From Microcoleus sp. FACHB-1515 (GTDB lineage: Bacteria > Cyanobacteriota > Cyanobacteriia > Elainellales > Elainellaceae): 64,000 bases of DNA. Made by a program: the position numbers and the translations under genes. How positions within the stretch are numbered: position 1 is the stretch's first letter; every line of letters starts with the position of its first letter. Location of the stretch: positions 124,001 through 188,000 of the forward strand of contig NZ_JACJPO010000056.1 in assembly GCF_014696105.1 (NCBI RefSeq), given 5' to 3'. Below are positions 6,152-63,794 of this stretch, piece by piece. Below the pieces are notes generated by a model. That model was given only the letters and a program-made list of their open reading frames with translations, ran no database searches and was not told the origin of the DNA.

Positions 6152-7870
6152 TTATTCTTCGGCGTTGCCTGCTCTGGCTTCTTCCGGCGGAATGAATCCG
6201 GGCGGCGCGTCCATGTTGGTTTGCTGTTCGGCTTCGTCTACTTTCGGGTTGCGATCGCCCACGCCATAATCATACGGGCCACCAACCAGAACGGGCAGCG
6301 TCTCGAAGTTTTCGATCGGCGGTGGACTCGTGGTTTGCCACTCAAAGGTGAGGGCGTTCCAAGGGTTTGAGGGAGCGATCGGGCCATTTACCCAAGCCCA
6401 GCAAGCGTTGATCAAGAAGGGAATCGTCGAGACGGCGAGAATGTAGGAGCCGATCGAGCAAAGCAAATTTAGCGTCGCAAATTTCGGGTCGTACAGGGCG
6501 ACACGGCGCGGCATTCCCAAGAGACCCAGTTCGTGCATCGGCATAAATGTCAGGTTTGCGCCGATCAAGGTGAGGACAAAGTGAACATAGCCCAGCGGCT
6601 CGTTCATCATCCGTCCGGTCATCTTGGGGAACCAGTGATAGATCGCGGCGTAGATGCCAAACACTGATCCGCCAAACAGCACGTAGTGCAGGTGAGCCAC
6701 GACGAAATAGGTGTCGTGGACGTGGATATCAAACGGTACTGCGGCCACCATGACTCCGGTGATCCCGCCGATCAAGAACATCGCGACAAAGCCGATCGCA
6801 AACCACATCGCCGTCGTCATGTCGAGCTTGCCGCCCCAAATCGTGGCCGTCCAGCCGAAGACTTTGATTCCGGTCGGCACGGCAATCACCATCGTCGTGA
6901 TCATGAAGAACATCCGCAGCCAAGCCGGAGTACCGCTGGTGAACATGTGGTGCGCCCAGACGATCAATCCGAGGAAGGCGATCGCTTGACTGGAGTAGGC
7001 GATCGCTCGATATCCAAAGATCGGCTTGCGGCAGTGGACGGGCAGCACTTCGGAAATCGACCCGAACAGCGGCAAAATCATGATGTACACCGCTGGGTGC
7101 GAGTAAAACCAGAACATATGCTGGTAGACGATCGGATCGCCGCCGCCAGTTGGATTGAAGAACGCCGTTCCCGCCAGCAGGTCAAAGGCCAAGAGAATCA
7201 ACGCACCCGCTAAGACGGGTGTGCCAATGAGGACTAGACCGGAAAGAGCGAGCATTGACCAGCAAAACAGGGGCATATCGTTTAAGCCCATGCTGGGAAC
7301 GCGCATCTTCAAAATCGTCACCAGGAAGTTAATCGCGCCCAAGATGGACGAGGTTCCCAGCGTCAGCAGGCAGAAGATCCAGATACCTTCGCCGACTTTT
7401 CCGGTCAGCAGACTGAGCGGTGGATAGGAAGTCCAGCCTGCTTCGGGAGCTTGAACGGCAAAGCTGGCGGCAAGCACGATCCCCGCTGGCGGAATCATCC
7501 AAAAGGCGATCGCGTTCAGCTTGGGGAACGCCATGTCCCTCGCGCCGATCATCAGCGGGATCAGATAGTTCGCCAAGCCCGCACCCGCCGGAATGATCCA
7601 CAAGAAGATCATGATCGTGCCGTGAACCGTAAACAGGCTGTTATAGATTTCCGGGCTGACGAGATCGGATTCGGGCGTGGCGAGTTCAGTGCGAATCACG
7701 GTCGCCAGTGCGCCGCCGATCAAATAAAAGATAAAAGACGTGACCAGATATTGAATGCCGATCACTTTATGGTCGGTGTTAAAGGTGAAGTAGTCCGTCC
7801 AGGGTCGCTGTCCGGGTTTTCCACCTTGCTCAGTCGGGTTGGCGACTGATTGCCATTCTGCTTGTGTCAT
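6152..7870 (-). CDS. ctaD: Cytochrome c oxidase subunit I
   Basis: 572 residues, the normal length. It is the catalytic subunit of aa3-type cytochrome c oxidase, carrying low-spin haem a and the haem a3-CuB centre. Visible ligands: the first haem histidine in FTVHGTIMIFLW, the CuB His in FYSHPAVYIMIL, the CuB pair in WAHHMFTSG, and the haem a3/a histidines in HDTYFVVAHLHYVLF. The motif reads HPAVY where many bacterial enzymes have HPEVY, so the D-channel glutamate position is Ala. The C-terminal tail is acidic and soluble. It lies between ctaC and ctaE on the same strand. Confidence 0.96.
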   Translation of the reverse strand: MTQAEWQSVANPTEQGGKPGQRPWTDYFTFNTDHKVIGIQYLVTSFIFYLIGGALATVIRTELATPESDLVSPEIYNSLFTVHGTIMIFLWIIPAGAGLANYLIPLMIGARDMAFPKLNAIAFWMIPPAGIVLAASFAVQAPEAGWTSYPPLSLLTGKVGEGIWIFCLLTLGTSSILGAINFLVTILKMRVPSMGLNDMPLFCWSMLALSGLVLIGTPVLAGALILLAFDLLAGTAFFNPTGGGDPIVYQHMFWFYSHPAVYIMILPLFGSISEVLPVHCRKPIFGYRAIAYSSQAIAFLGLIVWAHHMFTSGTPAWLRMFFMITTMVIAVPTGIKVFGWTATIWGGKLDMTTAMWFAIGFVAMFLIGGITGVMVAAVPFDIHVHDTYFVVAHLHYVLFGGSVFGIYAAIYHWFPKMTGRMMNEPLGYVHFVLTLIGANLTFMPMHELGLLGMPRRVALYDPKFATLNLLCSIGSYILAVSTIPFLINACWAWVNGPIAPSNPWNALTFEWQTTSPPPIENFETLPVLVGGPYDYGVGDRNPKVDEAEQQTNMDAPPGFIPPEEARAGNAEE

Positions 7871-16725: not shown

Positions 16726-17847
16726 ATGACCACAGGCATTGGCATTCGCACCGCTCAAGCCCGCAGCGAACGCTTGAAAGGACAGATCCACGTCTACGAT
16801 GGCGTTGGCAAAGGCAAGTCTCAAGCCGCGCTTGGCGTTGTGCTGCGATCGATCGGCTTGGGCATCCACACCGGAGCGCAAACTCGCGTTTTGCTCTTGC
16901 GCTTCCTCAAAGGTCCCGGACGCACCTATGACGAAGATGCGGCGATCGAAGCGCTTCAGCGCGGCTTTCCACATTTAATCGATCAGGTGCGAACCGGACG
17001 AGCCGAATTTTTTGGTGCAGACGACATTACTCGTTTCGACAAGCTCGAAGCGCAGCGCGGTTGGGACGTGGCAAAGGGCGCGATCGCATCCGGCCTCTAT
17101 TCAGTTGTCGTGCTGGACGAACTCAATCCCGTGCTGGATTTGGGACTCTTGGCGATCGATGAAGTTGTGCAAACGCTCAAGCGCAAACCGGAAGATCTCG
17201 AAATCATTGCGACCGGACGAGGTGCACCCCAACCCCTGCTCGACATCGCCGATCTGCATTCAGAAATGAAGCCCTACCCCGATGCAGGGCACGGCATGGA
17301 AGGCATCGAAATTTACACCGGATCGGGCAAAGGCAAATCAACAAGCGCCTTGGGCAAAGCGCTTCAGGCGATCGGCAAAGGCATCAGCCAAGACAAATCG
17401 CATCGCGTTTTGATTATGCAGTGGCTCAAAGGCGGCGTCGGCTATACCGAAGATGCGGCGATCGCTGCCCTCCACCAAAGCTATCCCAATTTGGTCGATC
17501 ATCAGCGCTGTGGACGAGATGCGATCGTCTGGCGCGGCCAGCAGCAAGAACTCGACTACATCGAAGCCGAACGCGGTTGGGAAATTGCCCGCGCCGCGAT
17601 CGCTTCCGGCCTCTACAAAACGATTATTTTGGATGAGTTAAATCCCACAGTTGATTTAGAATTGCTGCCGCAACAACCGATCGTTCAAGCTTTGTTGCGT
17701 AAGCCTCGCGACACCGAAGTGATTATTACCGGACGGTATAAAAATCCGCCCGCCTATTTCGATCTCGCCAGCACTCATTCCGAAGTTTTCAACCACAAAC
17801 ATTACGCTGAGAAAGGTGTGGATTTGAAACGAGGTGTGGATTTTTAA
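16726..17847 (+). CDS. Two-domain cob(I)alamin adenosyltransferase-like P-loop protein
   Basis: 373 residues made of two homologous CobA/CobO/BtuR-type domains. Domain 1 has IHVYDGVGKGKSQAALG (about 22-38) and domain 2 has IEIYTGSGKGKSTSALG (about 191-207). Both keep RVLLLRFLKG/RVLIMQWLKG, the ERGW/AQRGW helix and a VVLDELNP/IILDELNP strand. Classical CobA is a single domain of about 190 residues that transfers the adenosyl group from ATP to cob(I)alamin. Here a duplication and fusion gives an intramolecular pseudo-dimer. Such fused forms occur in cyanobacteria to my knowledge; the exact activity is inferred. Confidence 0.82.
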   Translation: MTTGIGIRTAQARSERLKGQIHVYDGVGKGKSQAALGVVLRSIGLGIHTGAQTRVLLLRFLKGPGRTYDEDAAIEALQRGFPHLIDQVRTGRAEFFGADDITRFDKLEAQRGWDVAKGAIASGLYSVVVLDELNPVLDLGLLAIDEVVQTLKRKPEDLEIIATGRGAPQPLLDIADLHSEMKPYPDAGHGMEGIEIYTGSGKGKSTSALGKALQAIGKGISQDKSHRVLIMQWLKGGVGYTEDAAIAALHQSYPNLVDHQRCGRDAIVWRGQQQELDYIEAERGWEIARAAIASGLYKTIILDELNPTVDLELLPQQPIVQALLRKPRDTEVIITGRYKNPPAYFDLASTHSEVFNHKHYAEKGVDLKRGVDF

Positions 17848-35880: not shown

Positions 35881-36855
35881 GTGCCGCCCATCATCACCTA
35901 CAGTCCGGCCTATACGATCGTGCCGACTTATGAATGCTTTAATCGCTGTGCCTACTGTAATTTTCGGGTTGATCCGGGGGGCGATCGCTGGCTCACGCTA
36001 GCGTCGGCTGAACAAATCTTGCGACCGCTGCGATCGCAAGGCGTAATCGAAATTTTGGTGCTGTCGGGTGAGGTGCATCCGCAGAGCGATCGTCGGAGGG
36101 CGTGGTTCGATCGCATCTTCGATTTGTGTGAATTGGCGCTCTCGCTGGGATTTTTGCCGCATACGAACGCTGGTCCCTTGAGTTTTGCAGAAATGGCGCG
36201 GCTCAAAACCGTGAATGTCTCGATGGGGCTGATGCTAGAGCAGCTTGCACCTTTGGCCGTGCATCGCCACGCGCCGAGCAAACGAGCAGAGCTGCGAATT
36301 CAGCAGCTTGAATGGGCGGGGGAACTGCAAATTCCATTTACGACCGGATTGCTGCTGGGCATTGGCGAACACGAAGCGGACTGGCAGGCAACGCTGGAGG
36401 CGATCGCTCAAATTCACGCGCGTTGGGGACATATTCAAGAAGTGATTTTGCAGCCGCACAGTCCGGGAAATCAGCAAAGCTGGACAGGCAAAGCGTTTGA
36501 CTTTGATCGATTAGTTGAAGTCGTGTCGATCGCTCGTCGCCTGCTGCCGCCCGACATTGCGCTGCAAATTCCGCCCAACCTCGTTTCTGAAACGACGCTG
36601 CTCGCCTGTCTGCGCGAGGGTGCAACAGACATTGGCGGCATCAGTCCCAAAGACGAAGTAAATCCGGATTATCCACATCCGCACGATCGCCAGCTTGCTC
36701 GTTTGCTCGATCGCGCTGGCTGGCAGTTGCATCCGCGCCTGCCCATTTATCCGCAGTATGACGCTTGGCTACCTGGGCAATTGCAGGAGGCGATCGCTGT
36801 TTGGCGCGAAAAAATCACAAGCGATCGCAGCCGACCTTCTAGTTTTCACGGTTGA
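35881..36855 (+). CDS. cofG: 7,8-didemethyl-8-hydroxy-5-deazariboflavin synthase, CofG subunit
   Basis: 324 residues from a GTG start. A radical SAM enzyme with the CFNRCAYCNF cluster motif (C-x3-C-x2-C). With CofH it makes the deazaflavin F0, the antenna chromophore of cyanobacterial photolyases. TNAGPLSFAEMARLK, SMGLMLEQL, HRHAPSKR and TTGLLLGIGE are typical CofG segments, and GGISPKDEVNPDYPHP is near the end. cofH is not in the window. Confidence 0.93.
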   Translation: MPPIITYSPAYTIVPTYECFNRCAYCNFRVDPGGDRWLTLASAEQILRPLRSQGVIEILVLSGEVHPQSDRRRAWFDRIFDLCELALSLGFLPHTNAGPLSFAEMARLKTVNVSMGLMLEQLAPLAVHRHAPSKRAELRIQQLEWAGELQIPFTTGLLLGIGEHEADWQATLEAIAQIHARWGHIQEVILQPHSPGNQQSWTGKAFDFDRLVEVVSIARRLLPPDIALQIPPNLVSETTLLACLREGATDIGGISPKDEVNPDYPHPHDRQLARLLDRAGWQLHPRLPIYPQYDAWLPGQLQEAIAVWREKITSDRSRPSSFHG

Positions 36856-57729: not shown

Positions 57730-59958
57730 ATGATACACGCCCATCGCCTGCCGCTCAAACGAGCGATTAAGAAGATTCCCCTTCAGCTCATTCTCGTTGT
57801 TCCGTTCGTCATTCAAACCGTTTCTGCTGTTGGTCTGGTTGGGTTTTTCTCATTTCGCAGCGGTCAAAAAGCCGTCAGTGCGCTGGCCGATCAGCTCATT
57901 GATAAGACGAGCCAGCAGGTAAACGCTCATCTGAATCTGTATCTCGCCCTGCCGCAACAGCTCAACGAACTCAACGCAGGCGCGATCGTCACAGGCAAAA
58001 TCGATCTCAACAATGCAAAGGACAGCGAGCAGATTTTTTGGCAGCAGGCGAAAACCTTTGAAACCCTGAGCTACATCGGCTATGCGCTTCCAGATGGGCG
58101 GCAGTCCGGAGCGGGGCGCTGGCTCAATGGCGTCGATCTACTGCTGTATGAGAATTTGCCAGGTGAAGGTAAAACGTTTGATTTTTTGGCAGATGCAGCA
58201 GGAGAGCGAAGAGTGCTGCTGCAAAGCTATGACTACAATCCGCTCAGCGATTCGTGGTATGAGCGAGCGATCGCTGAGCGGCAGCCTGCCTGGAGCGCCA
58301 TCTATACGGCACAGGTGTCGAACATCATCGCAAATCAGCAACAAACTACAGAACCCAAACCTTATGTTGCAGTTTCAGCAGTCGCCCCGGTCTATCAGGG
58401 AACACAACTGCTGGCAATTTTAAATATCGATTTGCTGCTCACCAACATCAGCGAGTTTTTGCAGCAGCTTAAAGCGAGTCCCAACGGTGAAGTGTTTATT
58501 CTAGAGCGCGATGGCAACTTAGTTGGAAGTTCAAGCACCCATCCAATCTTGCAAACAACAGGCACAACCACAGAACGCCTCAGCGCATTCAATAGCCCTG
58601 ACCCGCTGCTGCACGCGATCGGTGAAACGGTAAAAACTCAAGGAATTGACCTCAACGCGATCGATCGTGCTCAACACTTAAAAGTGAGCGTTGCTGGAGA
58701 GCCGCAGTATGTGCGAATTACGCCTTGGCAAGACCGCTACGGCTTGAACTGGCTTGTCGTTGTGACCGTGCCAGAATCGTACTTTATGGCTCAGATCAAT
58801 GCCAACGCTCGCACGACAGCTTTGCTGTGTTTGGCGGCTTTGGGCGCAACGATCGCGCTGGGAATTTACACGGCTCGCTGGATTACGCGCCCAATTTTGC
58901 AGCTTGCTCAAGCTTCAAAAGCGATCGCCGCAGGCAAGCTCGATCAGCAATTAGAGTATACGGGCATTCAAGAAGTTGATGTCGTCAGCGACTCGTTTAA
59001 TCAGATGGCAGAGCAGCTTAACGAGTCGTTTCGCGAAATGGAAAATCGAGTAGAAGCTCGAACTGAAGCGCTCTCTCAAGCTTTAAAAGAACTGCGTCAA
59101 ACGCAAATTCAGCTTGTTCAAACCGAAAAGATGTCAAGTTTAGGACAGCTTGTGGCCGGAGTTGCACACGAAATTAATAATCCGGTCAATTTCATTCACG
59201 GCAATCTCACTTTTGCAGAACAATATTCGCAAGTGCTGCTCGAAAGCATTCAACACTATCAAAAATATGCGCCTGCTTTGCCAGATGAAATCCAAGCAGA
59301 AATTGACGAACTCGATTTAGAGTTTGTCAAGCAAGATTTGCCGAAAGTGCTTGCTTCGATGCAAACTGGAACCAGTCGAGTTGCAGAAATTATTCGATCG
59401 CTCCGCAATTTTTCACGCTTGGACGAAGACGGATTCAAAATTGTTGATATTCACGAAGGCATTGATAACACCTTGATGGTTTTGCATCATCGTCTTAAAG
59501 CATCGCTCGATCGACCTGAAATTAAAATCATTAAAAACTACAGTAATTTGCCGCCAATTGAATGTTGCCCTGGTCAACTCAATCAGGTGTTTATGAATCT
59601 TTTAAGCAATGCGATCGATGCCGTCGAAGAAGCTCGAATAGTGCGATCGGATCAGCACGCAAAGCAAGCTTTAAGCACAATCGAAGTTGTCACTGAGCAG
59701 CAGGACGATCGCACAGTTGCGATTCGAGTAATTGATAACGGCGCAGGTATTTCTAAGTCCGCTCAGGACAAACTATTTGATCCATTTTTTACAACTAAGC
59801 CTGTTGGCAAAGGAACGGGTCTTGGTCTTTCAATTAGCTATCAAATTATTAGCGATCGGCATCAGGGCAAACTGTATTGTCAGTCCACCTCTAGCAGCGG
59901 AACCGAGTTTGTCGTTGAGCTACCCATAACACAAAAGCGGACATCTATCGAGATTTGA
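57730..59958 (+). CDS. Membrane sensor histidine kinase (dCache-HAMP-HK)
   Basis: 742 residues. First helix LQLILVVPFVIQTVSAVGLV, a periplasmic double-Cache domain (about 45-350, with YIGYALPDGRQSGAGRWLNG), second helix (TALLCLAALGATIALGIYTA), HAMP (RPILQLAQASKAIAAGKLDQ), a coiled linker (REMENRVEARTEALSQALKE), then the kinase core: phospho-acceptor VAGVAHEINNPVNFIHGN, N-box NLLSNAIDAVEEA, DNGAGI and GKGTGLGLSIS. The HisKA type is the cyanobacterial EINNPVNFI subgroup. No response regulator gene adjoins. Confidence 0.92.
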   Translation: MIHAHRLPLKRAIKKIPLQLILVVPFVIQTVSAVGLVGFFSFRSGQKAVSALADQLIDKTSQQVNAHLNLYLALPQQLNELNAGAIVTGKIDLNNAKDSEQIFWQQAKTFETLSYIGYALPDGRQSGAGRWLNGVDLLLYENLPGEGKTFDFLADAAGERRVLLQSYDYNPLSDSWYERAIAERQPAWSAIYTAQVSNIIANQQQTTEPKPYVAVSAVAPVYQGTQLLAILNIDLLLTNISEFLQQLKASPNGEVFILERDGNLVGSSSTHPILQTTGTTTERLSAFNSPDPLLHAIGETVKTQGIDLNAIDRAQHLKVSVAGEPQYVRITPWQDRYGLNWLVVVTVPESYFMAQINANARTTALLCLAALGATIALGIYTARWITRPILQLAQASKAIAAGKLDQQLEYTGIQEVDVVSDSFNQMAEQLNESFREMENRVEARTEALSQALKELRQTQIQLVQTEKMSSLGQLVAGVAHEINNPVNFIHGNLTFAEQYSQVLLESIQHYQKYAPALPDEIQAEIDELDLEFVKQDLPKVLASMQTGTSRVAEIIRSLRNFSRLDEDGFKIVDIHEGIDNTLMVLHHRLKASLDRPEIKIIKNYSNLPPIECCPGQLNQVFMNLLSNAIDAVEEARIVRSDQHAKQALSTIEVVTEQQDDRTVAIRVIDNGAGISKSAQDKLFDPFFTTKPVGKGTGLGLSISYQIISDRHQGKLYCQSTSSSGTEFVVELPITQKRTSIEI

Positions 59959-60189
59959 GGCGCTAAAGCGATCGCAATCCGACTTAAGTCGAATCACTTT
60001 GTGTTCAGCTTGTCATCCGGATTTCGACGGAGTAGAATTACGGACATTCAGTCTTCACAAACTGTAAAGCGCTTTGATTGGACGAGCTAAATACTCGTAG
60101 ATTCTCGCGCGTCATTAAGGCCAAAAGCCTAACTTCTTGCTGCTGCAATACACCGTTTGAGTCACTTTGAATAGGAGCCTGAATCTGAA

Positions 60190-60660
60190 ATGACACCGAT
60201 CATGCTCGATCGCACCACGCGAACTGGAAAGCGTGCTGTTGCTGCAATTGATATTGCTCAAGGAACAACAATTCATCACATTCGCCACTATCAAATTCGT
60301 CATACTCCGACCTATACCAGTGTGCAGCTCAGCGCAAATTTGCACATCGAAGAATTGTATCTTGCCTCGCTCAATCACAGTTGCGATCCAAATGTTTTGA
60401 TTAATCTTGAAACTTTGGAATTGCAGGCCATTCGCGATATTGCTGTCGGAGAAGAACTGAGCTTTTTCTATCCCAGTACAGAATGGGAAATGGACGCGCC
60501 GTTTGACTGTTTGTGTCAGTCGCCTCGGTGCCTAAAGCGAATTGCTGGAGCAAAATATCTCTCGATCGAAACCTTGAGTCAGTACACACTCAATCGACAC
60601 ATCTGCGTTCAAATCTTCAGTAGCTTGGCGCAGGCGAGCCAGTTTGTACAGGCGGCCTAG
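60190..60660 (+). CDS. SET domain protein
   Basis: 156 residues. The SET core shows SLNHSCDPNVLINLETLELQ (NHSC at 62-65, forming the pseudoknot), IRDIAVGEELSFFYPSTEWE and a post-SET cysteine cluster CLCQSPRC (C107, C109, C114). It would bind S-adenosylmethionine and methylate lysine or a related amine. Bacterial SET proteins with a short post-SET motif occur near biosynthetic genes. It is 59 bases upstream of the A-T-R gene on the same strand and probably cotranscribed, so its substrate may be the tethered or released product. Confidence 0.82.
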   Translation: MTPIMLDRTTRTGKRAVAAIDIAQGTTIHHIRHYQIRHTPTYTSVQLSANLHIEELYLASLNHSCDPNVLINLETLELQAIRDIAVGEELSFFYPSTEWEMDAPFDCLCQSPRCLKRIAGAKYLSIETLSQYTLNRHICVQIFSSLAQASQFVQAA

Positions 60661-60719
60661 CTCGGCTGAGCACTTGCTATTAACTACAGCCATCTAATCA
60701 AAAATTCGGGCATTTCTAC

Positions 60720-63700
60720 ATGACGTTGTTGCATTCTGCTACACTCGTTGTGCTGTTTGAAGCACAAGTTCAACAAACGCCCGATCGCATCGCGCTGATC
60801 GAAGGCGATCGCCAGTTTACCTATCAAGAACTCAACGCCAAAGCCAATCAGCTTGCTCACGCGCTCAAGCAGTGTGACTGGGCAAACCACACGAACCTGG
60901 TGGCGATCGCGCTCGATCGATCTTGCGAATTTGTGATTGCCGTTTTGGGCGTGTTGAAGGCCGGATTTGCCTACATTCCGCTTGACCGATCGCTGCCTGA
61001 AAATCGCATTTTGCACATTCTTTCTGAAGCGCGATCGCCGCTGCTGACCACACAGGCGTTTGCGGGCGTCGAACTTCCGGTTCCCAGCTTCCACCTCGAT
61101 CGCGCTCAGCCTTTAATTCAGCGTCAAAGTACGGCCAATCCGGTCAGTTGCGTTCAGCCGAGCGATCTCGCTTACGTGATCTACACCTCTGGTTCGACCG
61201 GAGTTCCCAAAGGTGTGATGATCGAACACCGCTCTGCCGCTCACTACGCCGTGACAGCAGCGGCAGCATATGGCTTGACGCCGATCGATCGCGTGTTGCA
61301 GTGCTGCTCGCTCAGCTTTGATGCGGTGATTGAAGAATTATTCTGCACATTTGCGATCGGCGCAACATTGATCATCCGCAGCGAAGACATGCTGAGCACG
61401 GCAGCTTTTTTCTTGAGCGAATGTCAGCGATTGCAGATTAGCGCTTTGTTTGTGCCAACTGCGCTGTGGCACTTCCTCGCAACTGCTGTCGTTGAAGAGG
61501 CGCTGGAACTGCCCAAGACGCTGCATCTCATTAGCGTGGGCGGAGAACGAGCACGACCAGAATTGTTTCAGCGCTGGCGCGATCGCGTCGGCAACTCGAT
61601 TCGCTTGATCAACAGCTATGGGCCGACCGAGGCAACGGTTGTGGCAACGATGAGCGACTTATCGCAGCTCGAAGCAATCGAGGGCGAACTCCCCATCGGT
61701 GTGCCGATCGCCGGAGTCGAAGCTTACGTTCTCGATGCTGACCTGAATCCTGTTGCACCGTTTCAGGTCGGAGAGCTGTATTTGGGCGGGGTGGGAATTG
61801 CCAGAGGCTATCTAAATCAGCCGCAACTCACGCAGGAACGCTTCATTCTCAATCCGTTCGACAATTGCACTCGCCTCTATCGCACGGGCGATCGCGTGCG
61901 GATGCGATCGGATCAGCAGCTTGAATATGTCGGCAGAATCGATCATCAAGTTAAAGTGGCAGGTGGATTTCGCGTCGAACTGTTTGAGATTGAAGCTCAA
62001 ATCGCGCAGCATCCGAGCGTCGATCAAGCCGTTGTCATCGCAGCAGATCAGGGGCAGGGTGAAAAGTGCCTGATTGCCTATGTGGTTTTCCAATCGATTG
62101 TGTTTGAAGAAACGGTTGCCCTTGCAGAATTGCGATCGTTCTTGAAGCAGCAGCTACCCGCCTACATGATCCCGGTGCGGTTTGTGCCGCTAGACGCGCT
62201 GCCGCTTAGCCCAATCGGAAAAGTCGATCGCCAAAAGCTCGCGGCGCAATCTGTAGCAACTGAAATAGCGCCATCAACTCGATCGAACAGCTCGATCGCC
62301 GCTCAAATTGCCAATATCTTTCAAGGTCTGCTTCAGCAATCGATCGGCCTTGACGATAACTTCTTTGATTGGGGAGGAACGTCGCTGCTCGCCGCTCAAG
62401 CCCTCGCGCAGATCACTCGCACTTGGCAAGTGTCTGTGTGGATGCGTCAGTTTTATCAGTCACCCACGCCTGCGGCACTTGCTCAAATTGTGCTTGCTGC
62501 ACAGCAAGGCAAGCCATCGCTGAACGAGTCGATCGATTTTGAGGCGGAAGCTCAGTTTTCTCTGGAGGTCGATCGCGCCAAGCCCGTGCTGTCTGTCGCA
62601 GCCGCTCAAACCATTTTGCTGACGGGAGCCACCGGATTTTTGGGTGCGTTTCTGCTGCACGAACTGCTGCAAACTACGACGGCAACGATCGTCTGTCTCG
62701 TTCGGTGTCGCGATGCCACCGCAGGACAAGCCCGCCTGCAATCGATCCTGACCCAATATCACCTGTGGAATCCCGCCGATCGCGACCGGATTCAGATTCT
62801 ACCTGGCGATCTCGCCCAGCCTCGGCTTGGCCTCAGCGAAGCCGCATTTCTTCAGCTTGCCGATCGCGTTGAAGCGATTTATCACAGCGGCGCGATCGTT
62901 GATTTTATCAAACCCTATTCGCTGCTCAAAGCCGCCAACGTCCTTGGCACAGCAGAAATTCTGCGGCTTGCGAGCAGCGGCACGGCCATCAAACCGCTGA
63001 TTTACATTTCCACGATCGGCGTGTTTGGAGCGGCAGGCTACTTCACAGGCAACACCGTGATTCACGAGCAAACGCCGCTTTCAGTCAGCAAGCCATTTAT
63101 TGGCTTAGACGACGGCTATGCTCAAAGCAAGTGGGTCGCGGAACGAATGGTTCAGCAGGCACAGCAGAAATTGCCGATCGCAATCGTGCGACCAGGATTC
63201 ATTTTTGGTCACAGCCAAACTGGAGCCGCCAACCACAAAGACTACATTTCTCGCTTGATCAAAGGCTGCATCGAACTAGGCTGTGTATCGCCGATCTTTG
63301 GACAAAAAGATCAGATGGTTACGGTCGATTACGTGGCACGAGCGATCGTTTATCTTTCAAAAAGTTCTCAGCACATCGGCAAGATTTTTCATCTAACACC
63401 GCCCCCTGGCCGCGACATCAACACACACCAACTGTATCGGTTATTGGGAAAATTTGGCTACTCTCTTGATTGGGTGAGCTATTCAGAATGGACGCAACGA
63501 CTCGCCAGTTCTCCGACCAATTCGCTTTATCCGCTGCTGCCGTTATTTAGCGAACCTGTTTATCAGGGCAAATCTCTGATTGAACTTTACGAACACTGCC
63601 CAGACTACGACTGTTGCACAACGCAAGCAGCACTTGCAGCGATCGAAATGACATTTTCATCAATTGAGCCAGTCTTGCTCAAAACCTACCTGCCCGCTTG

Positions 63701-63794
63701 GATTCGCAGCGGATTTTTGACCCCGCCCGAAAAGGTTGAATTGTCAACAGTTCAGCCTCGGTTACTCACGTCTGCTACGGCACCTGAGCATTAG
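60720..63794 (+). CDS. Monomodular NRPS: adenylation - thiolation - thioester reductase
   Basis: 1024 residues. Adenylation domain (about 1-500): YVIYTSGSTGVPKGVMIEHR (A3), FDAVIEELF (A4, with the Asp that binds an amino group), NSYGPTEATV (A5), YRTGDRVRMRSDQQLEYVGR (A7-A8) and LSPIGKVDRQKL (A10). Thiolation domain with DNFFDWGGTSLLAAQAL, Ser at about 553. Reductase domain (about 630-1000): LLTGATGFLGAFLLHELL and the active-site YAQSKW (Y-x3-K). One amino acid is activated and released as an aldehyde or alcohol by NAD(P)H. No condensation domain, so no peptide bond is formed here. Confidence 0.9.
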   Translation: MTLLHSATLVVLFEAQVQQTPDRIALIEGDRQFTYQELNAKANQLAHALKQCDWANHTNLVAIALDRSCEFVIAVLGVLKAGFAYIPLDRSLPENRILHILSEARSPLLTTQAFAGVELPVPSFHLDRAQPLIQRQSTANPVSCVQPSDLAYVIYTSGSTGVPKGVMIEHRSAAHYAVTAAAAYGLTPIDRVLQCCSLSFDAVIEELFCTFAIGATLIIRSEDMLSTAAFFLSECQRLQISALFVPTALWHFLATAVVEEALELPKTLHLISVGGERARPELFQRWRDRVGNSIRLINSYGPTEATVVATMSDLSQLEAIEGELPIGVPIAGVEAYVLDADLNPVAPFQVGELYLGGVGIARGYLNQPQLTQERFILNPFDNCTRLYRTGDRVRMRSDQQLEYVGRIDHQVKVAGGFRVELFEIEAQIAQHPSVDQAVVIAADQGQGEKCLIAYVVFQSIVFEETVALAELRSFLKQQLPAYMIPVRFVPLDALPLSPIGKVDRQKLAAQSVATEIAPSTRSNSSIAAQIANIFQGLLQQSIGLDDNFFDWGGTSLLAAQALAQITRTWQVSVWMRQFYQSPTPAALAQIVLAAQQGKPSLNESIDFEAEAQFSLEVDRAKPVLSVAAAQTILLTGATGFLGAFLLHELLQTTTATIVCLVRCRDATAGQARLQSILTQYHLWNPADRDRIQILPGDLAQPRLGLSEAAFLQLADRVEAIYHSGAIVDFIKPYSLLKAANVLGTAEILRLASSGTAIKPLIYISTIGVFGAAGYFTGNTVIHEQTPLSVSKPFIGLDDGYAQSKWVAERMVQQAQQKLPIAIVRPGFIFGHSQTGAANHKDYISRLIKGCIELGCVSPIFGQKDQMVTVDYVARAIVYLSKSSQHIGKIFHLTPPPGRDINTHQLYRLLGKFGYSLDWVSYSEWTQRLASSPTNSLYPLLPLFSEPVYQGKSLIELYEHCPDYDCCTTQAALAAIEMTFSSIEPVLLKTYLPAWIRSGFLTPPEKVELSTVQPRLLTSATAPEH

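Follow-up and report, generated by a model that had tools for sequence, protein, structure and literature searches.

A BurB-like SET protein paired with a stand-alone A-T-R carboxylate reductase beside a dCache-like histidine kinase in Microcoleus sp. FACHB-1515

Background

SET domains classically methylate the lysines of proteins, and the myxochelin synthetase MxcG is known for the reductive release of lysine. Here we analyze a gene pair from the cyanobacterium Microcoleus sp. FACHB-1515 in which a small SET protein is followed by a stand-alone A-T-R enzyme, that is, a single module with adenylation (A), carrier (T) and thioester reductase (R) domains. The pair, with a histidine kinase before it, lies in a stretch of 64,000 nucleotides that is called the window below (positions 124,001 to 188,000 of contig NZ_JACJPO010000056.1; contig C52 of the 5.79 Mb genome G000 in our labels).

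In the literature found, the sole characterized SET-fold kind outside protein methylation is BurB/MSMT (methionine S-methyltransferase, dimethylsulfoniopropionate synthesis), described as converting free methionine to S-methylmethionine (PMC12542666, PMC7496086). As for free lysine, its methylation is cited as a side activity of Rubisco LSMT, a SET enzyme, and Neurospora is cited as having a methyltransferase activity on free lysine for which no gene is established (PMC8085414). The one search aimed at a dedicated bacterial free-lysine SET methyltransferase turned up none; separate literature searches gave no paper that joins SET domain, cyanobacteria and thioester reductase and none that describes the present cassette.

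Two described systems resemble the reductase side of the locus. ATRR, a fungal (and nematode) glycine betaine reductase of the nonribosomal peptide synthetase (NRPS)-like type, is likewise a stand-alone reducing enzyme and takes a methylated onium acid; it is described as having two reductase domains. Its Asp235 loop is replaced (PMC7496086), whereas the window A domain keeps Asp235. The ham cluster (fragin/valdiazen) produces a diffusible signal, and its A-T-R protein, HamD, works on a single amino acid; valdiazen is the nearest precedent for a signal made by an A-T-R enzyme. The source on ham also names mgo and pvf of pseudomonads as related clusters, and its available text reports no SET protein in the ham cluster (PMC5878181).

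Results and discussion

An intact SET/A-T-R gene pair

The genes and domains of the locus are listed below (L numbers denote SET places and G numbers genomes).

57730-59958, + strand: histidine kinase of 742 amino acids with a dCache-like sensor (about residues 15-380), HAMP, HisKA and HATPase_c (Pfam; sensor homology to SET-side kinases in L188-L192 and L194)
60010-60038, + strand: promoter-like site (10 of 12) between the kinase and SET genes, weak (6 found against a shuffle mean of 5.5)
60190-60660, + strand: SET-fold methyltransferase, BurB-like, 156 amino acids (Pfam SET, BurB match at 1e-13, structure model)
60720-63794, + strand: stand-alone A-T-R carboxylate reductase, 1024 amino acids (Pfam, NCBIfam)
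60756-62222, + strand: adenylation domain, pocket D201 A202 E205 F244 S272 G274 S299 V307 V308 K501 = DAEFSGSVVK (Pfam and pocket alignment)
62304-62489, + strand: carrier (T) domain with the GGTSLL serine motif (Pfam, motif)
62610-63719, + strand: thioester reductase domain, TGATGFLG, Y800/K804 (TIGR01746, 324.5 bits, cut-off 213)

An initial annotation of the window had placed the SET gene 59 bases before a single-module A-T-R gene, and the open reading frames (ORFs), Pfam domains and intact motifs bear this out: 59 bases separate the SET stop from the A-T-R start, and both ORFs are intact. The SET gene, of which the genome holds exactly one, starts 231 bases after the end of the kinase gene (59958) on the same strand. 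Neither this kinase nor the alternative partner described below featured in the initial annotation. The pair is more than a chance arrangement because both reading frames have conserved homologues in many genomes and the pairing recurs; it is real and functional-looking. Promoter and terminator counts show no excess over shuffles, and no tandem repeats were found.

The reading that we prefer, and to which we would give slightly less than an even chance, is that the SET protein methylates a free basic amino acid, that the A-T-R enzyme reduces it and that the kinase senses the product. We infer the substrate, the order of the steps, the final product and the ligand of the kinase as follows. Using S-adenosylmethionine, the SET protein would place methyl on the side chain of a basic alpha-amino acid in its free form, N6 of L-lysine being the likeliest site. 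The A-T-R enzyme would adenylate the amino acid, with the alpha-amino group held by Asp201 and the cationic side chain facing Glu205, load it onto the carrier and then release it reductively with NAD(P)H as an aldehyde or alcohol; an aldehyde may cyclize or dimerize to a pyrazine. The product, or a derivative of it, would be sensed by the upstream dCache-like kinase, and the cassette would thus make and sense one small molecule. Sensing of the product by the kinase, if true, would amount to a new amino-acid-derived signaling system in cyanobacteria.

The SET protein is closest to BurB, outside the BurB clade

The window protein belongs to the SET superfamily (Pfam SET, 32.3 bits, cut-off 22.4). 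The NHSC motif (LNHSCDPN) and the catalytic tyrosine (FFY, Tyr94) are seen in the SET alignment, and the post-SET cysteines (CLCQSPRC) are present, complete as initially annotated. By sequence, the nearest solved protein is BurB (1e-13), followed by SMYD3 (1e-4). The structure model (mean predicted local distance difference test score, pLDDT, 92) matches BurB with Z 15.4 (root mean square deviation 3.2, 126 residues aligned), as against Z of 11.5 or less for histone-type SET domains (VIA-align), and Foldseek ranks BurB and the histone-type folds in the same order. The window protein shares with BurB its small size, the stand-alone single SET domain and its fold, the post-SET cysteines and a motif of the NHSC type, and the genes of both lie next to a carrier-protein assembly line.

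The two are separated in a FastTree phylogeny of 103 rows, into which BurB was entered as an 84-residue fragment: BurB falls with Eleftheria, Rhizobium and Sphingomonas plasmid proteins (L170, L171, L174), whereas the window protein groups with five other cyanobacterial proteins (L175, L131, L176-L178) with a support of 0.91. The window clade reads YPSTEW where BurB reads YASTED, and a BurI/BurD/BurE-type gene set was not seen beside the window SET. Filing the window protein as a BurB-type methionine S-methyltransferase was rejected since the tree separates the two. By both sequence and model the nearest solved relative is BurB, not a histone-type enzyme, and the window protein is best called BurB-like, outside BurB's own clade. 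Because the methionine contacts of BurB are described as main-chain (PMC12542666), side chains cannot decide on methionine activity. The window clade would be a second SET-fold kind outside protein methylation, with different partners.

An ordinary protein-lysine methyltransferase, modifying for example a ribosomal protein or the A-T-R enzyme and standing at this position incidentally, would agree with the database names ('SET domain-containing protein-lysine N-methyltransferase') and with the classical role of SET domains. We regard this as quite improbable, and have set it aside as the preferred reading while keeping it as a rival, because the protein is closest to BurB in both sequence and fold and metabolic neighbors recur beside its relatives; a scattered distribution (23 of 386 cyanobacterial genomes) also fits a ribosomal target poorly. 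The initial annotation had left open whether the product, the carrier-bound amino acid or a protein is N-methylated. With BurB as the nearest solved relative and a recurring A-T-R partner, a small molecule is probable, and a protein is less likely than a free amino acid.

The A-T-R pocket code suggests a basic amino acid as the probable substrate

AMP-binding, AMP-binding_C, PP-binding and NAD_binding_4 all score above their Pfam cut-offs in the A-T-R protein, and Pfam finds no condensation domain in it. The domain order, the lack of a condensation domain and the conserved catalytic motifs (A-domain core, carrier GGTSLL, reductase TGATGFLG and Y-x-x-x-K as YAQSK) are those of a stand-alone NRPS-like carboxylate reductase. 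The best NCBIfam match over the protein is MxcG at 734 bits, far under that family's cut-off of 2300, and unlike MxcG the window enzyme has no condensation domain.

The pocket code was read by ungapped alignment to GrsA, whose position numbering, including Asp235 as the residue that holds the alpha-amino group, we take as given; the reading was checked on neighbors with codes that resemble known ones. Residue 201 is an Asp at the position equivalent to Asp235, and the initial statement that the A domain keeps this residue holds on the assumed numbering. The ten-residue code, DAEFSGSVVK, points to a basic amino acid. Enzymes beside SET genes elsewhere (see below) read DAEFSGGVVK (L188), DTEVTGTIVK (L189) and DTEDIGGVV with the last residue unread (L192), and two SET-less sisters read DAESIGTVVK and DAESVGTVIK. 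Asp235 and Glu239, the latter probably facing a cation, are kept in all six. A literature search for the full codes gave no hit. The lysine module of BacB is given as DAESIGSV (PMC3207962), which equals the window's DAEFSGSV at six of eight positions, the differences being Ser to Phe at 278 and Ile to Ser at 299 of the GrsA numbering. Because the codes keep Asp235 and Glu239 and resemble the BacB lysine code, a substrate with a basic side chain is likely, with lysine as the first candidate; the earlier proposal that one alpha-amino acid is activated and reduced appears probable. As a hint, the Phe and Ser at 278 and 299, found in the window and L188 and not shared by L189 and L192, could fit a methylated ammonium group.

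The same evidence bears on a sulfur alternative, in which the SET protein would be a BurB-like methionine S-methyltransferase and the A-T-R enzyme would reduce S-methylmethionine, or another sulfonium acid, to a sulfonium aldehyde or alcohol. BurB, the nearest solved and best-studied relative, does make S-methylmethionine and acts on methionine, not lysine, which tells against the lysine pathway, and in BurA-A, which loads a sulfonium acid, the cation is likewise described as facing an acidic residue of the pocket (PMC7496086). We hold this alternative to be rather improbable: BurB groups apart from the window SET, the A pocket and those of the SET-less sisters look like lysine codes, and SETs that fall outside the BurB group have lysine-type neighbors. 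The window provides an intact, cloneable pair for asking whether SET enzymes methylate free lysine.

The pairing recurs in other cyanobacteria

Wide flanks were inspected around nine SET places of cyanobacteria, spread over eight genomes (the window, L188, L189, L190, L191, L192, L193, L194 and L195), the closer SET relatives having come from a second sample of 387 genomes. An A-T-R gene stands beside SET in four of the nine places, namely the window and three other cyanobacteria (L188, L189, L192). SET precedes the A-T-R gene in the window and L188 and follows it in L189; in L192 it follows with a halogenase-like gene in between, and the enzyme there has a methyltransferase domain inserted (A-nMT-T-R). 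When 59 A domains were placed in a tree, the four SET-linked ones fell together with the two SET-less ones in a six-member clade (0.983), so that the pair appears to have been inherited and SET to have been lost in G396 and G401. The SET/A-T-R pairing is well supported.

Several results weigh against our preferred reading. The L188 locus (G449) is a relic: SET lacks its amino end, and the A-T-R gene is frameshifted and has lost part of its sequence. The L189 enzyme (G609) has one frameshift. G396 and G401, the genomes with the nearest A-T-R homologues, keep that enzyme and have no SET gene. The window's order (36 genomes) yielded no further pair; four of its other genomes have a SET match with no A-T-R gene in the stretches inspected. 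In a genome contig collection, the flanks of the 80 top-ranking SET relatives contain no A, T or R domain. The initial annotation, which had proposed a survey of co-occurrence and made its case depend on adjacency in related genomes, therefore stands in part: the nearest relatives lack the pair and none turned up elsewhere among the 36 genomes of the order, yet it recurs outside the order in three other cyanobacteria with gene order changed.

A sensor kinase adjoins SET genes more often than expected

HAMP, HisKA and HATPase_c of the window kinase score above the Pfam cut-offs; dCache_1 scores 37.1 bits, below the cut-off of 45, and reaches 57.6 and 56.8 bits in the homologues at L188 and L189. 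The sensor half is 33-45% identical to SET-side kinase sensors in L188-L192 and L194, while the kinase half differs in L188 and L192, being of the hybrid type. Among the 12 genomes with stronger SET matches (weak-match genomes and G616, which has a SET fragment, were left out), such a kinase lies within 5 kb of SET in six (G000, G449, G609, G634, G541, G522), as against about 0.1 expected under random placement (P about 1e-10), a statistic that was computed after the pattern had been seen and ignores the relatedness of the genomes, although gene order differs between loci. Without the window's genome the count is 5 of 11 (P about 7e-9).

The kinase could also be a common paralogue that travels along with a cassette for a methylated amino-acid product or senses something else, and then would not be its receptor. 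The sensor family has 1-15 copies per genome (G000 5, G391 8, G449 14, G609 15, G634 4, G541 8, G522 6, G360 1, G278 1, G072 3, G300 1, G385 1), and because of this many copies must do other work; moreover, the closest relative of the window sensor is a paralogue in the same genome, away from SET (50%). Clustering of the SET-adjacent sensors on a 24-sensor tree is modest, at four label changes, a number as low being reached in 17 of 500 shuffles. These points speak against a dedicated receptor. We nevertheless consider the bystander explanation unlikely, given the adjacency in 6 of 12 genomes and the finding that in G609, G522, G541 and G634, though not in G449, no copy in the genome matches the window sensor better than the one beside SET.

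A predicted diiron protein as an apparent alternative partner

At four other places (L190, L191, L193, L194), and also beside the more distant SETs L132/L133, SET adjoins a protein of 285 amino acids. It has no Pfam, NCBIfam or PDB-sequence match and is named by predicted fold only: its model (pLDDT 77.8) suggests a heme-oxygenase-like diiron fold, with Z of 17.3 to PolF, 17.0 to HrmI (an entry with N6-hydroxylysine bound), 16.6 to HamA and 16.4 to BesC. The protein is present in 4 of 13 genomes (G391, G541, G609, G634). No homologue occurs in the window's genome, more distant diiron proteins not having been searched for, and at 1e-120 A-T-R gave no match in G391, G541 or G634. G609 has both proteins, at two separate SET places. 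With this exception, A-T-R and diiron proteins appear from their distribution to be alternatives at SET cassettes.

The predicted fold is shared with HamA. A Ham/Mgo/Pvf-type cluster would have the A-T-R and diiron genes in one locus, an arrangement not found in the window; in SET cassettes the two alternate and a dCache-like kinase adjoins. A broader version of our preferred reading would be a cyanobacterial make-and-sense system in which a SET enzyme methylates free lysine, A-T-R reduction or diiron oxidation follows, and the methylated lysine-derived signals reach a co-encoded dCache-like kinase whose sensor is kept and whose output module is exchanged. Taken as a whole this is possible, if somewhat unlikely.

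Two SET relics were also seen. The one at L194 (5646-6977, G609) has a sensor kinase and an intact diiron gene next to it, and the one at L195 (about 7182-7358, G616) stands alone. Such relics suggest that SET cassettes decay frequently.

Neighbors of related SET genes

Neighbors were clustered for 69 of 80 SET loci, 11 being dropped as the SET ORF was not recovered. Among the SET loci of the two genome samples (386 and 387 genomes), some were seen with 1.5 kb flanks only and others without context. The repeated neighbors are genes of amino-acid and small-molecule metabolism. An LL-diaminopimelate aminotransferase adjoins SET in L086 (440 bits, cut-off 365), and a gene of this type also adjoins Moorena SETs. 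A homologue of lysine hydroxylases/halogenases with HxD kept lies beside SET in L088 (7.6e-74 to halogenase B, lysine enzymes next); L192 has a weaker homologue of this kind. Also recurrent are ATP-grasp ligases, among them an ATP-grasp/SET fusion, and DMT/EamA-like transporters (by eye; one annotated). Plasmid SET loci beside a diaminopimelate decarboxylase or an AdoMet decarboxylase-like gene were not counted as lysine evidence, since in the SET tree they lie on BurB's side.

In a recurrent operon, SET stands with either one or two ATP-grasp proteins that resemble D-Ala-D-Ala ligases, and one such protein is itself fused to a further SET domain. The operon occurs in Bacteroidetes, Gemmatimonadota, a metagenome-assembled genome of Fibrobacteres and one cyanobacterium (L029 7932-11051, L071 7938-11027, L056, L047, L004, L012, L044; cyanobacterial L107 895-2961); it is probably another small-molecule SET pathway. 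In several cyanobacteria SETs stand directly beside DMT/EamA-like transporters, as judged by eye (L089, L090 and L095, of an RTxHSFQMD-motif subfamily; L085, L086), which suggests an exported product. On a conjugative plasmid of Tabrizicola (L172 1124-6128), SET is followed by a GHMP kinase, a pyridoxal phosphate enzyme, a DMT transporter and an alanine racemase.

Among L008-L082, mostly Chloroflexota, one radical-SAM-like family occurs within four ORFs of SET in 36 of the 69 clustered loci, always upstream in the 12 rows inspected. Within the window, far from SET, a radical-SAM protein (35881-36855; by eye a CofG-type FO synthase subunit) resembles the protein upstream of SET in the Moorena loci L045 and L072. 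A single ORF at 16726-17847 has two similar halves and looks, by eye, like a cob(I)alamin adenosyltransferase.

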